NCBI GenBank assembly: GCA_018241505.1
Contig: JAFEDS010000010.1
Span: forward strand, 248,001-312,000
Direction: 5' to 3'
DNA from: Pseudomonadota bacterium
GTDB taxonomy: Bacteria; Pseudomonadota; Gammaproteobacteria; Steroidobacterales; Steroidobacteraceae
Length of the DNA stretch: 64,000 bases
The notes under the pieces are model-generated. The model saw nothing but the letters and a program-made list of their open reading frames with translations. It had not been told where the DNA came from and did no database searches. Positions 1,710-22,123 of this stretch are shown here, piece by piece (position 1 is the stretch's first letter; each line of letters begins with the position of its first letter). Both the position numbers and the translations under genes were made by a program.

Positions 1710-2300
1710 ATGAATGTGTTCGTACTATGCACAGGTCGGTGCGGCTCGCAGACGTTCATCAAAGCGTGCAGTCATTTTTCCAACTATTCCTCGGCTCATG
1801 AATCGCGAATGGCACTGATCGGCCCGGAGCGCCTGCGCTATCCCGCCAATCACATTGAAGCGGACAATCGACTCTCCTGGCTTCTCGGACGATTGGACGA
1901 GGTTTACGGAGATGCCGCGTTCTACGTTCATTTGCGGCGAGATGTTGCGGCCGTCGCCGCAAGCTACGCCCGGCGCTACAACTTCGGAATCATGCAGGCC
2001 TACCGCGACCCCGGAATCATCATGGGTCTACCCAAGGGGACCGATCCGATAGCCGTCGCCGCGGACTACTGCAATACCGTCGATCGCAACATCGAGCTGT
2101 TTCTGAAAGATAAATCCAAACAGATGAAATTTTGGCTCGAGTCCGCCTCGCAGGACTTCCCGGTGTTCTGCGATCGGATCGGCGCAGAAGGCGACCTGGC
2201 GGCCGCCCTGTCAGAGTTCAGCATTCGTCACGATGACACGCCGCGCCGCAAACGGTTTTCACTGTGGCGAACGCCCGTTGGAGCGTCGGGCGCCGGCTAA
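1710..2300 (+). CDS. Sulfotransferase-like protein
   Basis: A 196-residue protein starting with a P-loop-like CTGRCGSQTF (residues 7-16), the usual 5'-phosphosulfate-binding loop of small bacterial sulfotransferases. It has a second candidate cofactor segment around YVHLRRD at residues 72-78. The start has a G-rich Shine-Dalgarno region about nine bases upstream. The last 25 or so residues (after about 172) are Arg-rich and unlike the family, and lie against the decayed acetyltransferase that follows. The native C-terminus may therefore have been replaced when that gene eroded. Substrate unknown. Confidence 0.6.
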   Translation: MNVFVLCTGRCGSQTFIKACSHFSNYSSAHESRMALIGPERLRYPANHIEADNRLSWLLGRLDEVYGDAAFYVHLRRDVAAVAASYARRYNFGIMQAYRDPGIIMGLPKGTDPIAVAADYCNTVDRNIELFLKDKSKQMKFWLESASQDFPVFCDRIGAEGDLAAALSEFSIRHDDTPRRKRFSLWRTPVGASGAG

Positions 2301-2963
2301 CGCGGCTCCACATAACCTTATCCTTGCGAAGAGGCAATCCGGCCGACGGCCCGGCCGTTGGGATATTTGTTACCGAGCATTCAAAGCCATCTCGGACCAG
2401 CATGGCTTCTCGCCTGATTTCCCAGACACGGAAAGCGCCGCCGGCCTTCTCAGCATGCTGATCGGTCACAATGGATTCTTTGACATCGTGGCGGAAGTCG
2501 ATGGAAAAATCGTCGGCAGCAACTTCCTCGACGCGCGCAATCTGATTGCCCGCGTGGGGCCACTCACGGTCGATCCTGCACTGCAGAACGACAGTGTTGG
2601 TCGCGCCCTGATGCAACTCGCCATGGAACATTCCGCCGAGCGCCGCTTTGCTGGCATCCGCCTCGTCCAAGCCGCTCATCATCGGCGCAGTCTCGCCCTC
2701 TATGTAAGACTGGGATTCGAGGTCCGTGAATTGTTAGCTTGCCTGAGAGCGAGGGGGCGAACTCGCCGACGCCATTGCTCGAGGTGTAGCGCGTGTCGTG
2801 GTGCGCAACGGACGAATTACGGGCTATGCCACCCCTATCGCCTTTTTCGGCCATGCGGTCGCCGAAACCAACGATGACTTGCAAGGACTCATTGGCGCGG
2901 CGGAGTCTTTCCCGGGAGCTGGCCTCCTCGTCCCCACCAGCAACGGAGAATTGCTGCACCTGA
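2264..2963 (+). pseudogene. Decayed GNAT acetyltransferase
   Basis: Acetyltransferase sequence is spread over three frames. The frame beginning near 2264 gives the N-terminal strand (TLSLRRGNPADGPAVG). At about 2350 it shifts to a frame reading ICYRAFKAISDQHGF and on through IVGSNFLD, GPLTVDPAL, GRALMQLAM and SLALYVRLGFEVRE. At about 2748 it shifts again, with roughly 40 expected codons missing, into GGELADAIARG, GRITGYATPIAFFGH and SNGELLHL. After about 2963 family similarity stops. The order matches two-part GNAT proteins. Two frameshifts, an internal deletion and a lost C-terminus make this a pseudogene. Confidence 0.75.
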
Positions 2964-3102
2964 ATTCGCGCCGAGCCGTGCTTCTCCGCAGCATGCATCA
3001 GAGTGGAATGAAAGCGCTTATTGATCTAAATTGGGCGGACGGTTCGCCACGACAGCCTCTAACAATAAACTGCCGCGTGGCGCGGCGCGAAGGATCAGCC
3101 CC

Positions 3103-3816
3103 GTGGAGTACATTCCGGACAACCTCCTAGAGTGGTTCATTGTTCCACTCTTGCTGTACATGTTCATTTTCTGGCTTCGCGACAAGCTGAACATCCTGCA
3201 CATGCCGCTTGCAGACCTGATAGCGCTCATAGTGATAGCGAATATAGCGATGGCGATTCACTTCGAAGATCTTCGAGGGATCTTCGCTCACATCCACTTG
3301 GCGGCGCCCGAATCCCGATCGGACTGCATAAGACTTGCCGTGATTGGAGTCGTTGTCATTTTCTGGTTGGTCAACTGCATCGAGCGGCGGATCCTCCGTG
3401 TGACACTGCATCACATCTCTGTCGGGCTCGTCCACCATCCTTGGCCGCACTACGAGTCGGCCATCGAAACCTTCAAATCGCCGCGATTCCGGCGGTTCAC
3501 ATTCCGCTGGGCGCTGGGTTTCGCAGTCACCGCTGCAGTTCTCGCCCTGCATGCTCTGGCTCTCTCCTTGCCGCCGCTTGGTTTTGTGGGCAAGCTGATC
3601 CAAATCCAGGCCATCAATCCGCAGTTTCAGGCGGTGTTGCTCACGGTCGGAACCTTCATTGTGTTCGTCGCAATCGCCGTGCTGCTCACCGCCGCCCGAG
3701 TGTTCCGCTACTCGGAGACTCCGATTGAGTGGACGTTCAAGGAAGACGAGCTGAATGGAAATCAAGAACCGTCCCACCTGGCGAGGCTTCTTGGCTGCTT
3801 CTGGAACAGATCGTAG
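3103..3816 (+). CDS. Multi-pass membrane protein of unknown function
   Basis: A protein of about 237 residues with around five hydrophobic segments, recognisable as LLEWFIVPLLLYMFIFWL near the N-terminus, ADLIALIVIANIAMAI, LAVIGVVVIFWLV, GFAVTAAVLALHALAL and VLLTVGTFIVFVAIAVLL near the C-terminus. The GTG at 3103 is preferred because AAGGA lies eight bases upstream; the frame also extends up to an alternative start at 3031. No family is recognised. It follows the decayed acetyltransferase and overlaps nothing essential, so it may belong to the same eroding accessory patch. Confidence 0.5.
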   Translation: MEYIPDNLLEWFIVPLLLYMFIFWLRDKLNILHMPLADLIALIVIANIAMAIHFEDLRGIFAHIHLAAPESRSDCIRLAVIGVVVIFWLVNCIERRILRVTLHHISVGLVHHPWPHYESAIETFKSPRFRRFTFRWALGFAVTAAVLALHALALSLPPLGFVGKLIQIQAINPQFQAVLLTVGTFIVFVAIAVLLTAARVFRYSETPIEWTFKEDELNGNQEPSHLARLLGCFWNRS

Positions 3817-3843
3817 CGACTGGACCTATAGCGATTTCATCGA

Positions 3844-3981
3844 ATGGAGGGCGGCCTCCCCGTTCAACGAGTCGGCTTCGACATTGCGGTAACCGTATCG
3901 GAAAAGACAGGCACCAAGGGCACTGTTGGAATCGTCATGGGGGCCATCGGACGGGAGGAGAGCGACTGCGATTCGGGCTGA
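3844..3981 (+). pseudogene. Trypco2-like domain fragment
   Basis: A 45-codon reading from ATG 3844 contains RVGFDIAVTVSEKTGTKG followed by a Val/Gly-rich strand and then stops. As I recall the family, that core resembles the small trypsin-co-occurring domain (trypco2) found beside serine proteases in predicted conflict systems. The usual helical N-terminus and a final strand before the stop are missing. After 3960 another frame continues with an RLRFGLKNLLDLL segment, which could be the displaced C-terminus. No protease gene is nearby. Weak, recognition-based call; chance similarity is possible. Confidence 0.35.
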
Positions 3982-4061
3982 AAAATCTACTCGATCTTCT
4001 GCGCGCACTGGATGACGGCGTCTATTACCCGGACGAGGAGTAGGCTACAGCGGCAGCGAGC

Positions 4062-5675
4062 TCACTCCCACTCAATCGTCGCCGGCGGCTTCCCCGAGAT
4101 GTCGTAGACCACGCGGGAAATCCCGGCGACTTCGTTCACGATGCGCCGTGACACGTGCTCGAGAAACTCATAGGGCAGCCGCGCCCAATGCGCCGTCATG
4201 AAATCAACAGTCTCGACGGCGCGCAACGCAATGACATAGTCATAACGCCGCGCATCCCCCAACACACCCACTGACCGAACCGGCAGAAACACGGCAAACG
4301 CCTGGCTCGTCTTGTCGTACAAGTCGTGCTTGCGCAGCTCATCAATGAAGATGTCATCCGCACGGCGCAACAGGTCGGCAAACTCCTTCTTGATTTCGCC
4401 GAGAATGCGTACGCCCAATCCCGGGCCCGGAAAAGGATGACGGTGGACCATCTCGGCGGGCAGGCCGAGCTCAATCCCCATGCGCCGCACTTCGTCCTTG
4501 AACAACTCACGCAAGGGCTCGACGAGCTTGAGCTTCATGCGCTCGGGCAAGCCTCCCACGTTGTGGTGCGACTTGATGACGTGCGCCTTGCCGGTGCGCG
4601 CACCGGCGGACTCGATCACATCCGGGTAGATCGTGCCCTGCGCGAGGAAGTCCACACCTGTCAGTTTGTGTGCTTCCTCGTCGAACACTTCAATGAAGGT
4701 ACGGCCAATGATCTTGCGCTTCTGCTCCGGATCGGTCACACCGGCCAGACCCGCCAGGAACCTCTGTTCCGCGTTCACCCGGATGACTTGCACCCCCAGA
4801 TGCCTGCCGAACGTCTCCATCACCTGGTCGCCTTCACCGAGGCGCAGCAGACCGGTATCGACAAACACACAGACGAGTTGGTCGCCGATGGCACGGTGCA
4901 GAAGCGCCGCCACGACGGAGGAATCGACTCCGCCGGAAAGACCCAACAGGACCTTACCCTTGCCTACCTGCGCATGAACACGTTCAATTGCGTCCGCAAT
5001 AATATTGCCAACGCTCCACAAAGCATCGCTACCGCAGATCTCGCGAACAAATCGCTCCAATACCCGCGTACCCTGCTTCGTGTGGGTCACTTCGGGATGG
5101 AACTGAACTCCGTAAAAGCGGCGCTTCTCATCAGCCATGGCCGCGTACGGAATGGAGTGAGTCGAAGCTGTCACCTCAAACCCGGCGGGCAGTGCGGCAA
5201 CGCGGTCGCCATGACTCATCCACACATCCAACACCGCACAGCCACTGGTGTCACGACGGTCTTGAATGTCGTCGAGCAGGCGCGAATCGGCCTTGACGGT
5301 CACTTCCGCGTAGCCGAATTCCCGTTCGGTCGATGCGGCGACCTGCCCACCCAACTGCTGGGCCATTGTCTGCATGCCATAGCAGATACCCAGCACGGGC
5401 ACGCCCAGTGTGAAAACAGACTCAGGTGCCTTTGGAGGCTTGGCGTCGGTGACCGATTCCGGGCCGCCCGACAATATGATTCCCCGCGGGCCGAAGGCCC
5501 GAACTTCCTCGTCAGAAATGTCCCAGGGGTGGATCTCGCAGTACACGCCGAATTCGCGCACGCGGCGGGCAATCAACTGGGTGTATTGCGCACCGAAGTC
5601 GAGAATCAGAATGCGGTGGGCGTGAATGTCCGCGTGGGAGGTTGAAGAAACAGAGGATCGGGCAACACTGGACAT
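4062..5675 (-). CDS. guaA: GMP synthase (glutamine-hydrolysing)
   Basis: Converts XMP to GMP using glutamine and ATP, in the cytoplasm. The class I glutamine amidotransferase domain covers about residues 20-210, with nucleophile C98 in GICYGM and partners H193 and E195 in FHPEV. The ATP pyrophosphatase domain follows, with the GLSGGVDSS loop at 245-253, and then the dimerisation domain ending in PPATIEWE. The length of 537 is slightly above the usual 525 because of about 12 extra N-terminal Ser-rich residues. It lies 56 bases downstream of guaB on the same strand, giving the classic guaBA operon. Confidence 0.98.
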
Positions 5676-18090: not shown

Positions 18091-18519
<429 letters not shown>

Positions 18520-18665
18520 CGCAAAAATCCTCACGAAACTGGGGGAAAATCTGCGGCCGATAAGACCGCAAACCAGCCGCGCAGTTTACCTTGTGATCCG
18601 CGTATGGAGCAATTTGGGAGATGCAGCCGCCACCCCCGGAAGTCCCGGTTCCTAAAGGGCTTTTG

Positions 18666-18695
18666 CTGGGCGGGCCCAGGCCGGGGCTGCCCGGC
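18666..18695 (-). terminator. Two adjacent GC hairpins after iscA
   Basis: GCCGGG/CCCGGC (18680-18695, loop GCTG) begins at the iscA stop codon and is followed by CTGGGC/GCCCAG (18666-18679, two-base loop). Both stems are perfect six-base pairings. On the minus strand no T-run follows, so they may slow or end iscS-iscA transcription before ndk only with help from Rho. Confidence 0.35.
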
Positions 18696-19018
18696 TAGAC
18701 CGAGAAGCTCTCCCCGCAGCCACACTCCCCCTTCACATTGGGGTTGAGGAAGCGGAAAGCCTCGTTGAGCCCTTGCTTAACGAAGTCCACGACGGTCCCG
18801 TCGATGAGCTTGATACTGCCCGGGTCGACGAACACTTTGACACCACGATCCTCGAACATGAGGTCGCCGGGGTTTACTTCATCGGCATAATTGATGACGT
18901 AAGCGAATCCGGAGCAGCCGGTCTTGCGCACGCCCAACCGCAGGCCCACGCCGTGGCCGCGATTGACGAGAAATGATTTGACCCGATTGGCAGCGGATTC
19001 AGTCAGGGAAATAGCCAT
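18695..19018 (-). CDS. iscA: A-type iron-sulfur carrier IscA
   Basis: Carries iron or an Fe-S cluster to client proteins. The 107 residues contain the three conserved cysteines, C35 (TGCSGF), C99 and C101 (GECGCGES). The length and [17 protein letters not shown] start fit IscA. It lies 36 bases downstream of the cysteine desulfurase gene. iscU, hscB, hscA and fdx, which usually surround it, are not present between iscS and ndk. Confidence 0.93.
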
Positions 19019-19054: not shown

Positions 19055-20542
19055 CTACGCCCGTTCCGGCCAACGCCGGACACAAGCCTGTACAGCATCT
19101 TCGATTACCAGGAGCCGGCCCAGTTTCTCCACCGGTACACCGTGCTCAGCCGCCCATTCCGCAGGGGTGCCCGGCTGCAACGCTTCACGTCGCCTGCCCG
19201 GCAGCGCCTTCGCCATCCATGCGGCCACAGCCAGAGTATGGGGGCATCCGTAGGCTTGAAAACGGGCGTCCTTCACAACATCGCCCGCTACGGTCAAATG
19301 AAAGCGAATCCAGGTGTCCTGACCGGGCCCACCCCCCTCACCATGCAATGCTCCGTCGCCACCCGACGGCACTTCAGTGGACGCCGGTGACAACGAACGC
19401 AGACGCCGCACCTCGCGATTCACTGCAGCAATCGCGGTATCTACGTCTGCTTCACTGGTAAAACGCCCTAGGCTAAATCGCAGTGAACTCTGCGCCAATT
19501 GTGTATCCCGGCCCAATGCGCGCAGCACATAGGACGGTTCAGCGGAAGCCGAGTTACAAGCCGACCCTGTAGAGATGGCCAGCTCCGCCAGCCCCATCAC
19601 CAGGCTCTCGCCTTCAACACCCTCAAAGGAAACGTTGAGTACCGCGGGCAGCCGTGACGCGCCTTCTCCATTCAGGTGCACCCCGCCGAGACCCGCAATA
19701 CCAGCCCATAGCCGATCTCGAAACGCACCCAGACGGGGCGCCTCTGCGGGCAGAAGCTCACGCGCCAAAGCACACGCTTCACCCAGCCCCACGACCTGAT
19801 GCGTGGCCAATGTCCCGGGCCGGAGGCCCCGCTCCTGGCCGCCCCCGAACGTCACCGCATGCAGGCGTGGTCGAGCCGAATGGTTGACATACAGGGCGCC
19901 TGCCCCTTTGGGACCGTAAAGCTTATGTCCCGTGAACGAGAGGATATCTACGGGTAACGTGCTGACATCAATCGGGATTTTGCCGACTGCCTGGGCCGCG
20001 TCCGTATGGAAGGTGATGCCTCGCTTGCGGCAAATGGCCCCGATGCCGCCGACGTCCTGAATCACCCCAATCTCGTTGTTCGCAAACATAATGGAAACGA
20101 GAATCGTATCGGGCCGAACGGCGGCCTGGACCGCTTCCGGATCGATTCGGCCGGAGCGATCAGGCGTGAGGTACGTGACCGAAAACCCCTCTTTCTCCAG
20201 GCGCTTACACGGATCCAGCACTGCTTTGTGCTCGGTCCGCGAAGTCACTATGTGACGACCGCGATCGCCATTGGAGCGGGCAATGCCCAGCACGGCCAGG
20301 TTGTTCGACTCCGTCGCCCCGGAAGTAAAAATGATCTCGTCCGGCTGGGCGGACAAAAGCGCAGCCACTTGGGCGCGCGCCTCATCGACCCGAACAGCGG
20401 CGCGGCGTCCGAACACATGCGTCGCCGACCCCGAATTGCCGAAATCACCGTCGGGGCCCATGCAAGTGGTCATGGCCCGCACGACGGCCGGATCAACTGG
20501 CGTGGTGGCTGCGTAGTCGAGATAGATGACGTCACTTTGCAC
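19055..20542 (-). CDS. iscS: Cysteine desulfurase fused to an IscU-like domain
   Basis: Residues 1-380 are a cysteine desulfurase that takes sulfur from cysteine for Fe-S clusters. H105, D181, PLP-lysine K207 (TGHKLYG) and active-site C329 (GSACNSAS) are present. After a Ser/Gly-rich linker (residues 384-408), residues 410-490 resemble IscU: WIRFHLTVAG, DARFQAYGCPHTLA and a final VIEDAVQACV like the IscU LAEDAIKAA helix. Only C433 of the three IscU scaffold cysteines remains. The protein is about 495 residues against the usual 404. Its start overlaps the end of trmJ, and iscA follows. iscR is missing. Confidence 0.9.
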   Translation of the reverse strand: MQSDVIYLDYAATTPVDPAVVRAMTTCMGPDGDFGNSGSATHVFGRRAAVRVDEARAQVAALLSAQPDEIIFTSGATESNNLAVLGIARSNGDRGRHIVTSRTEHKAVLDPCKRLEKEGFSVTYLTPDRSGRIDPEAVQAAVRPDTILVSIMFANNEIGVIQDVGGIGAICRKRGITFHTDAAQAVGKIPIDVSTLPVDILSFTGHKLYGPKGAGALYVNHSARPRLHAVTFGGGQERGLRPGTLATHQVVGLGEACALARELLPAEAPRLGAFRDRLWAGIAGLGGVHLNGEGASRLPAVLNVSFEGVEGESLVMGLAELAISTGSACNSASAEPSYVLRALGRDTQLAQSSLRFSLGRFTSEADVDTAIAAVNREVRRLRSLSPASTEVPSGGDGALHGEGGGPGQDTWIRFHLTVAGDVVKDARFQAYGCPHTLAVAAWMAKALPGRRREALQPGTPAEWAAEHGVPVEKLGRLLVIEDAVQACVRRWPERA

Positions 20543-21278
20543 CGTCGTTTCCTCCCGCGCGCCGTCTACGGGCCTGAACAGCGGTCAGCAGCCCACGCAC
20601 AATATTGGCCTCGTTCTGATCGAGCTCCGCCCGCTGGAGAAAACGTCTGATGCGTGCCATCAAATTGGTACCGCTTTGAGTCCGGTCGCGGAATTCCACT
20701 TCCTCCATCACCTGCGCCAAATGCGCGTACAGATGCTCCATCTGCTCGGGAGTTGCCAACGGCACTTCAGTCGGCAGCGGCACGACCTTAGCTCCCCGAG
20801 CACGAAACAGCTCGTACGAAACGAGTTGCACCGCCATAGCGAGATTCAGCGATAAATAAGCCTGATTCGCGGGAATCCGGATCAGGACGTGCGCTGAATC
20901 AATGTCATCGTTCGTGAGACCCGTACGCTCCGCCCCGAATAGCACCGCAGCGGGCGAACGACGCGCTTCAGCAACGATGCGCTCCGCCGCGTCGCGCACA
21001 TCGACCACGCGGAAATTCTGGTCGCGATCACGCGAAGTGGTCGCGGCGACAAAACCGCAGCCATCGAGGCCCTGAGCGAGCGTGTCGACTACACGGGCAC
21101 GTTCGAGGATGTCATCTGCGCCTGATGCACGTGCGGTGGCTTCCGCGTGCGGAAACTGCTTCGGACGCACGAGGACCAGCTCTTCGAGTGCCATGTTCTT
21201 CATGGCACGCGCTACCGCCCCGATATTTCCCGGGTGCGAAGGTTCGACCAGAACGATACGAATGTTGGGCGACATCAA
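20532..21278 (-). CDS. trmJ: tRNA (cytidine/uridine-2'-O-)-methyltransferase TrmJ
   Basis: A SPOUT-family enzyme that 2'-O-methylates position 32 of tRNAs. The 248 residues begin IRIVLVEPSHPGNIGAVARA and include LFGAERTGL and the C-terminal IPANQAYLSLNLAMAVQL, which form the SAM-binding knot. A helical C-terminal extension ends Arg-rich. It overlaps the iscS start by 11 bases, so the two are coupled. It is divergent from suhB with 44 bases between starts, as in many gammaproteobacteria. Confidence 0.94.
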   Translation of the reverse strand: MMSPNIRIVLVEPSHPGNIGAVARAMKNMALEELVLVRPKQFPHAEATARASGADDILERARVVDTLAQGLDGCGFVAATTSRDRDQNFRVVDVRDAAERIVAEARRSPAAVLFGAERTGLTNDDIDSAHVLIRIPANQAYLSLNLAMAVQLVSYELFRARGAKVVPLPTEVPLATPEQMEHLYAHLAQVMEEVEFRDRTQSGTNLMARIRRFLQRAELDQNEANIVRGLLTAVQARRRRAGGNDGAK

Positions 21279-21322: not shown

Positions 21323-22123
21323 GTGCATGCGCTTCTTAATATCGCCGTCAAGGCCGCCCGTGCCGCCGGCGAAGTCATTGTCCGTAGCCTCAACCGCCTC
21401 GAGTCCCTGACGATTACGTCGAAGGGACGCAACGACTTCGTCAGCGAGGTCGATCATGCGGCCGAGGCGGAGATCATCAAGGTTATCCGCAAGAACTACC
21501 CCAGCCACGCCTTTCTGGCCGAGGAAAGCGGCCGGACCGGCGAAAGCGACACGATCTGGATCATCGACCCGCTCGACGGAACAACGAACTTCCTGCACGG
21601 CTTTCCGACTTTCGCAGTGTCGATCGCGTGTCAGATTAAGGGCAAGCTGGAGCATGGCGTCGTATACGATCCCATGAGCCAGGAGCTTTTCACGGCCTCG
21701 CGTGGCGGTGGCGCGCACCTCGACAACCGACGCATTCGCGTCAGCAAGCAACGCGGCCTCGAAGGTGCCCTCATCGGCACCGGTTTTCCATATCGCGCCA
21801 ACGCGAAATATCTCGACTCGTATCTCCTGATGCTTCGTGCAGTGATGGAGCATACCGCGGGCGTCCGTCGTCCCGGTTCCGCCGCGCTCGACTTGGCTTA
21901 TGTCGCAGCGGGAAGAACTGATGCGTTCTGGGAGATTGGACTGGCACCTTGGGATACAGCGGCCGGAACTTTGCTGATTCAAGAAGCGGGCGGACGCATT
22001 GGTACACTCACGGGCGGTGAATATACGCAGGGAGGGAACGTACTCGCGGGCTCTCCCAAAGTTTACGCAGCTCTGGTCGAGTTATTGAACCCGCACATTC
22101 CACAGGAGTTGCGCGAAGGCTGA
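21323..22123 (+). CDS. suhB: Inositol-1-monophosphatase SuhB
   Basis: A magnesium-dependent phosphatase that also serves as a transcription antitermination factor for rRNA operons in E. coli. The 266 residues show metal ligands in AEESG (about 66-70), IDPLDGTTNFLHGFP (81-95) and WDTAAGTLLIQEAGG. The only sensible start is GTG at 21323, giving MHALLNIAVKAARAAG, which matches E. coli SuhB. It is divergent from trmJ. Confidence 0.96.
   Translation: MHALLNIAVKAARAAGEVIVRSLNRLESLTITSKGRNDFVSEVDHAAEAEIIKVIRKNYPSHAFLAEESGRTGESDTIWIIDPLDGTTNFLHGFPTFAVSIACQIKGKLEHGVVYDPMSQELFTASRGGGAHLDNRRIRVSKQRGLEGALIGTGFPYRANAKYLDSYLLMLRAVMEHTAGVRRPGSAALDLAYVAAGRTDAFWEIGLAPWDTAAGTLLIQEAGGRIGTLTGGEYTQGGNVLAGSPKVYAALVELLNPHIPQELREG

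Follow-up and report, generated by a model that had tools for sequence, protein, structure and literature searches.

Organization of the locus

The window, meaning the whole stretch of 64,000 nucleotides analyzed here, contains an open reading frame encoding a single protein in which an IscS-type desulfurase is followed by a short linker and a domain of the IscU fold (Table 1). With its GTG start, this gene overlaps the stop codon of trmJ by 11 nt. It belongs to a row of minus-strand genes running trmJ, iscS fusion, iscA, ndk, rlmN, a TPR gene, rodZ, and hisS. In E. coli, suhB and trmJ adjoin the iscRSUA-hscBA-fdx-iscX cluster, and by analogy the window locus looks like an E. coli-like isc locus devoid of iscR, hscB, hscA, and fdx.

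Table 1. Features of the fusion gene and its surroundings, in window positions
Feature	Position	Strand	Basis
ndk, downstream neighbor in most relatives	18091..18534	-	
iscA, A-type carrier, GCSGF and ECGCG cysteines present	18695..19018	-	TIGR02011 IscA 152.9 bits, cut-off 150.6
iscS-IscU-like fusion gene, 495 aa, GTG start	19055..20542	-	ORF calling, Pfam, NCBIfam
IscS desulfurase core, residues 1-386	19385..20542	-	
K207 codon of IscS core	19922-19924	-	
C329 codon of IscS core	19556-19558	-	
Linker, residues 387-397, at the place of the IscU N-terminal part	19352..19384	-	Model secondary structure, alignment
IscU-like domain, residues 398-495	19058..19351	-	NifU_N match, fold comparisons
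Q408, position of IscU Cys37	19319..19321	-	Alignment to E. coli IscU
C433, position of IscU Cys63, then P434 and H435	19244..19246	-	Alignment
K473, position of IscU Lys103	19124..19126	-	Alignment
R476, position of IscU Cys106; G475 at His105	19115..19117	-	Alignment
trmJ, tRNA 2'-O-methyltransferase, upstream in operon	20532..21278	-	Pfam, NCBIfam
Inositol monophosphatase family gene (suhB-like), divergent from trmJ	21323..22123	+	PF00459

The tail is IscU by fold and place

The desulfurase core has the aminotransferase class V fold, including the PLP lysine and the mobile-loop cysteine. It scored below the cut-offs of the equivalog TIGR02006 (517.7 bits versus 643.2) and of PRK14012 (538 bits versus 548), which nevertheless were its best-matching families. 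The tail displayed both a NifU_N domain and the IscU fold, NifU_N being the sole match at an E value of up to 1; the TusA domain PF01206 was not found in it. Its scores remained below the equivalog cut-offs for IscU (TIGR01999, 26.3 bits versus 192.4) and for SufU (TIGR01994, 19.8 bits versus 92.5). An AF2 model of the fusion reached a pLDDT of 92.4 and a pTM of 0.90, values that would fit a defined position of the domain, pTM alone being no proof of the pose; when the whole model was submitted to a fold search, the match list was filled by the IscS part. The first-pass annotation had read the gene as a desulfurase with K207 and C329 fused to an IscU-like domain and had proposed a profile search of the C-terminal part and a structure prediction, and the NifU_N match, the predicted IscU fold, and the single frame of 495 aa all bear this reading out.

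We then compared the tail with the sequence marks of its candidate families. At the positions of the three cluster cysteines, Asp39, and His105 of IscU, the window protein has Q408, T410, C433, G475, and R476. Only one of the three cysteines that bind zinc in SufU is thus present, and LPPVK, the HscA-binding motif of IscU, reads VPVEK. The domain is therefore IscU by fold and place and fails the tested sequence marks of the IscU scaffold, SufU, and TusA; its most likely mode of action is that of an IscU docked on IscS without cluster assembly. C433 is indeed the only scaffold cysteine left, as first noted, and replacement of the ligands C37, D39, H105, and C106 upholds the view that the domain cannot be a normal scaffold. 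The accompanying idea that the domain begins after the first cysteine has to be dropped; Q408 occupies the Cys37 position.

Fused and separate forms among relatives

Among 100 genomes of the same family, the source genome included, 95 matched the 111-aa tail. Besides the window's own, 94 family loci were read, and one (L136), read as SufS-SufU, was left out, giving 93 loci. In every one of them, the domain directly follows iscS; it is fused in 39, so that the fusion recurs in related genomes as the first-pass annotation had suggested looking for, and encoded by a separate gene in 54. The order trmJ-iscS-domain-iscA-ndk is found in 78 of the 93, while in 15 trmJ, iscA, or ndk is missing within the sequence stretch read, any cases truncated by contig ends included. 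In the separate pairs, a candidate start overlaps the iscS stop by 4 nt in 37 of 54, 5 show another overlap, and 12 have a candidate start within 15 nt.

A scan of named genomes found 112 stretches encoding a relative, and the best 80 of these 112 comprised 53 fused and 27 separate forms. Apart from single exceptions, the titles were those of Gammaproteobacteria, Proteobacteria/Pseudomonadota, or Steroidobacteraceae. Two isolates, Steroidobacter agaridevorans (L214) and Peristeroidobacter agariperforans (L216), carry the separate form. The IscU-like sequence of genome G101 of this order recurs identically (L195 and L235) on a contig whose title, Rhodospirillales, is that of an alphaproteobacterial group; this is probably a mislabelled MAG.

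Across the order, the domain profile matched 287 of 296 genomes, including 204 of 204 high-quality ones, at an E value of up to 0.001, some of the weak matches probably being SufU. Among 19 order loci read outside the family, one (L243) is fused, C37 is present in none, and C106 is present in 2. In family f16 of the same order, L244 and L251 are separate genes that have kept the third cysteine (WHC) and lost the first, an intermediate state of decay. Seven genomes from other orders of the class scored 58 to 85 bits; together with three at 52 to 53 bits, they made up 10 loci that were read, lower-scoring matches lying outside this count. Two of the latter three (L232 and L234) encode three-cysteine IscU and the third (L233, genome G351) is disarmed. 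Eight of the 10 lack C37 and C106, and one of these eight (L225) is fused.

Ligand loss and residue conservation

C37 and C106 were found in 0 of the 93 family loci, and Asp39 and His105 were absent from all 93. Cys63 is retained in 91 loci and Pro64 in 92; His stands at position 65 in 72, Lys103 is found in 84, Gly at 105 in 83, and Arg at 106 in 86. The equivalent of LPPVK is mostly V/A-P-V/A-E-K. Cys63 is lost in one separate (L110) and one fused (L114) family locus, and among the 8 disarmed loci of other orders, 3 (L229, L231, and L233) have lost the middle cysteine as well; they have D, G, or N in its place and thus none of the three cysteines, but the gene still follows trmJ and iscS. 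Since all 54 separate family genes also lack C37 and C106, the ligand loss does not result from the fusion.

According to PMC2854127, E. coli IscU touches IscS through residues 38, 40, 42, 59 to 64, and 103. These IscS-facing positions are better conserved among the 93 loci than the other 80 positions (mean entropy of 1.18 versus 2.13 bits; Mann-Whitney P value of 0.002), although part of this contrast reflects the active site, as the IscS-facing set includes C63 and P64. Lys103, one of these contacts, is K473 in the window. Much of the domain sequence is variable across the 93 loci. In 17 hand-chosen close pairs, in one of which (L124-L127) dS is saturated, dN/dS ranged from 0.07 to 0.49 for the domain and from 0.04 to 0.22 for the IscS core, the domain value being the higher one in 13 of 17. 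The domain is thus under purifying selection in the pairs tested.

History of the fusion

A tree of 118 IscS cores was built by a quick method without bootstrap, leaving out six loci that were too short or had no usable IscS (L058, L062, L065, L133, L232, and L235). It required 11 changes between fused and separate states, 8 of them forced by strongly supported branches, compared to a mean of 34 after shuffling; such a count gives no direction. Outside the family, separate genes dominate and many have an IscU-like N terminus, so that repeated fusion of an already disarmed gene is the natural reading. Recurrent fusion and the conserved IscS-facing residues are also in line with the initial proposal that the fusion replaces the contact between separate IscS and IscU proteins, a contact that it would make permanent.

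In genus g16, the upstream trmJ is part of the fusion as well, so that one chain combines tRNA methyltransferase, desulfurase, and degenerate scaffold. In three of the four genomes, this TrmJ-IscS-IscU-like triple fusion is a single frame, with lengths of 799, 809, and 809 aa (L258 [G015:C1], L259 [G035:C49], and L260 [G052:C11]; L135, nt 2020-4419), with GCPH kept. In the fourth genome (completeness of 75), the region is present as two pieces on two contigs.

Cluster assembly and sulfur transfer genes in the genomes

The source genome (G000) comprises 7.88 Mb in 46 contigs, with a completeness of 93.9 and a contamination of 5.67. The 22 other genomes of the genus measure 2.7 to 6.6 Mb, and part of G000 may consist of foreign contigs. 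The first-pass annotation had suggested looking for iscU or suf elsewhere in the genome, and only the latter was found: a PF01592 search of this 93.9-complete assembly returned the fusion domain and the SufU of a suf operon, and no separate true IscU. The SufU keeps its three cysteines, and its gene lies near two SufB/D-core proteins. We read the row as sufB, sufC, sufD, sufS, sufU, a possible sufT, and a Rieske-type ferredoxin gene, the names sufC, sufS, sufT, and ferredoxin coming from sequence reading and not from family searches. The source genome thus has a second cluster-building system with its own desulfurase pair. It also encodes a second, unfused IscS-like desulfurase (L006, G000:C46:598869-599975), 42% identical and with the loop cysteine present; selenocysteine in this gene was considered and rejected, its single TGA being the end stop.

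HscB did not exceed the profile cut-off in any of the 100 family genomes, which makes the normal ISC handoff unlikely; it exceeded the cut-off in 1 of 14 controls. Matches below the cut-off, all within profile positions 4 to 56 of 156, occurred in 71 of the 100 and are probably other J-domain proteins.

Of 60 family genomes, no more than 6 had TusA over its cut-off (10 with any match) and the source genome had none, although MnmA exceeded its cut-off in 56 of 60; the usual sulfur relay for s2U therefore seems to be replaced or skipped in the family. Within a class set of 276 genomes, 12 carriers of the IscU-like protein were identified among the matches listed. Six of them have TusA over the cut-off (G105, G391, G450, G491, G508, and G549, where the flag for G491 follows from a tally of 217 of 219), and six do not (G000, G003, G015, G351, G365, and G460); TusA is over the cut-off in 211 of the other 264 genomes. 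As carriers outside the family often have TusA, a tRNA role through the domain is not needed there, and replacement of TusA as a general function is weakened. That the domain replaces TusA is thus possible, if weakly supported.

Possible functions of the domain

We consider with moderate confidence that the locus is a leftover ISC locus, in which IscU would persist as a single-cysteine, nonscaffold partner of IscS, docked in cis, taking or gating the persulfide at C433 while IscS feeds sulfur users other than clusters. We infer that SUF would have taken over Fe-S assembly and the ISC operon would have been reduced to a remnant. In this remnant, IscU has kept its place between iscS and iscA but is without its cluster ligands and most of its HscA-binding motif. 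We propose that the domain would sit in cis on the normal IscU site, the C-terminal helix of IscS, near the mobile Cys329 loop; that C433, with R476 at the Cys106 place and H435 nearby, would accept or gate the persulfide; and that IscS would supply, rather than a scaffold, users such as tRNA thiolation.

According to PMC2854127, IscU binds the C-terminal helix of IscS (residues 379 to 391), deletion of residues 376 to 404 abolishes binding, sulfur is expected to reach each IscU from the IscS subunit that it occupies, and C37 and C63 lie nearer than C106 to the modelled Cys328. The window domain is attached at this end of IscS and is thus well placed for docking. The preferred reading also draws on the conserved IscS-facing residues, the repeated changes between fused and separate states, the possible 4-nt overlaps of separate pairs, and the scores of the AF2 model, whereas the weaker constraint on the domain than on the IscS core in 13 of the 17 pairs speaks against it. 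Absence from the fusion of the IscU N terminus, whose Tyr3 and Tyr11 also touch IscS in E. coli, counts against docking. The nearly fixed C63, P64, and R106 count for a relay of sulfur. A tRNA outlet is favored by the frequent MnmA and rare TusA of the family and by the triple fusion, though trmJ is simply the next gene. Retention of C433 in 91 of 93 family loci favors an acceptor, while its losses (in two family loci and in 3 of the 8 disarmed loci from other orders) favor a role dispensing with it and mean that sulfur transfer through C433 is not universal.

These losses, with the gene still beside iscS, lead to the explanation we rank next, namely, that by occupying the IscU site the domain, as a built-in element, would plug IscS or regulate it allosterically, keeping other acceptors away or changing turnover without passing sulfur through C433. 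The conservation of IscS-facing residues above the rest agrees with it. In E. coli, IscU displaces TusA from IscS (PMC2854127), and active molybdoenzymes become less abundant when IscU is overexpressed (PMC11446229), so that permanent occupancy by IscU could work as a switch. However, C63, Pro64, and Arg at 106 are among the best-kept residues, which is more than pure binding seems to need, and we regard this explanation as possible but less likely than not.

A narrower version of sulfur transfer, a built-in relay for tRNA thiolation in which persulfide would pass from IscS to C433 of a rewired domain (Cys63 with Arg at 106) and on to MnmA, in place of TusA in a family mostly without it and with TrmJ on the same polypeptide in one genus, strikes us as doubtful.

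There is little to recommend a domain that still holds a metal or cluster through C433 and the mobile IscS Cys329 or through new ligands. According to the title of PDB entry 5wlw, the cysteine loop of a desulfurase can extend as far as the active site of IscU, and a histidine stands two residues after C433 in 72 of 93 loci. But His435 is not invariant, Asp39, His105, and two of the three cysteines are gone throughout the family, HscB is missing over the cut-off, and the source genome has a SUF operon.

A decaying, functionless relic fused by chance is very improbable: the variability of the domain, the 13 of 17 pairs in which it evolves faster than the IscS core, and a locus devoid of the other ISC genes would agree with decay, but dN/dS stays below 0.5 in all 17 chosen pairs, C63, P64, K103, and R106 are kept in 84 to 92 of 93 loci, and the profile, even allowing for weak matches that are probably SufU, reaches nearly the whole order. 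Finally, a sequencing or assembly frameshift joining two genes, which the first-pass annotation had named as a risk and which might be suspected in a 46-contig draft assembly with a contamination of 5.67, is ruled out by the 39 fused relatives, L137 from another MAG being 83% identical to the window fusion along the alignment.

Descriptions of IscU usually present it as a highly conserved scaffold. A disarmed IscU kept beside IscS, and often joined to it, suggests that it now steers sulfur rather than building clusters. The lineage kept IscU beside IscS together with many IscS-facing residues and gave up the cluster ligands, and the stages are visible: three-cysteine IscU (L234, from another order), forms with C63 and C106 (L244 and L251), separate genes with one ligand, fusions with one ligand, and forms with none (L229, L231, and L233). 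Two questions thereby become directly testable: how the features of IscU divide between docking to IscS and chemistry, and what role an IscU-like protein plays for a desulfurase if it does not serve to make a cluster.

Comparison with known systems

No published description of an IscS-IscU fusion, a degenerate IscU, or the ISC locus of this lineage appeared among the matches listed (titles and abstract starts) or in the excerpts of PMC2854127, PMC2682760, PMC11446229, and PMC4440780. The closest known system is E. coli IscS-IscU (3LVL; PMC2854127), with the same two families, the same folds, and iscS placed before the IscU gene and iscA. In contrast to E. coli IscU, the window domain has one of three cysteines, neither Asp39 nor His105, and a degraded LPPVK; it is about 23 N-terminal residues shorter and covalently joined to IscS, in a family without HscB over the cut-off. 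Compared to SufS-SufU, the SufU of the source genome keeps three cysteines, whereas the IscU-like domain keeps one and is paired with IscS, not SufS. The arrangement resembles the IscS-TusA relay in that a protein binding IscS, presumably by docking, offers a candidate single-cysteine sulfur acceptor, but the tail contains no TusA domain, and the footprint of TusA on IscS is a different one (PMC2854127). Finally, like the desulfurase-rhodanese chimeras of PMC8931425, the fusion joins a desulfurase to a sulfur-handling partner, which here is a degenerate scaffold and not a rhodanese.
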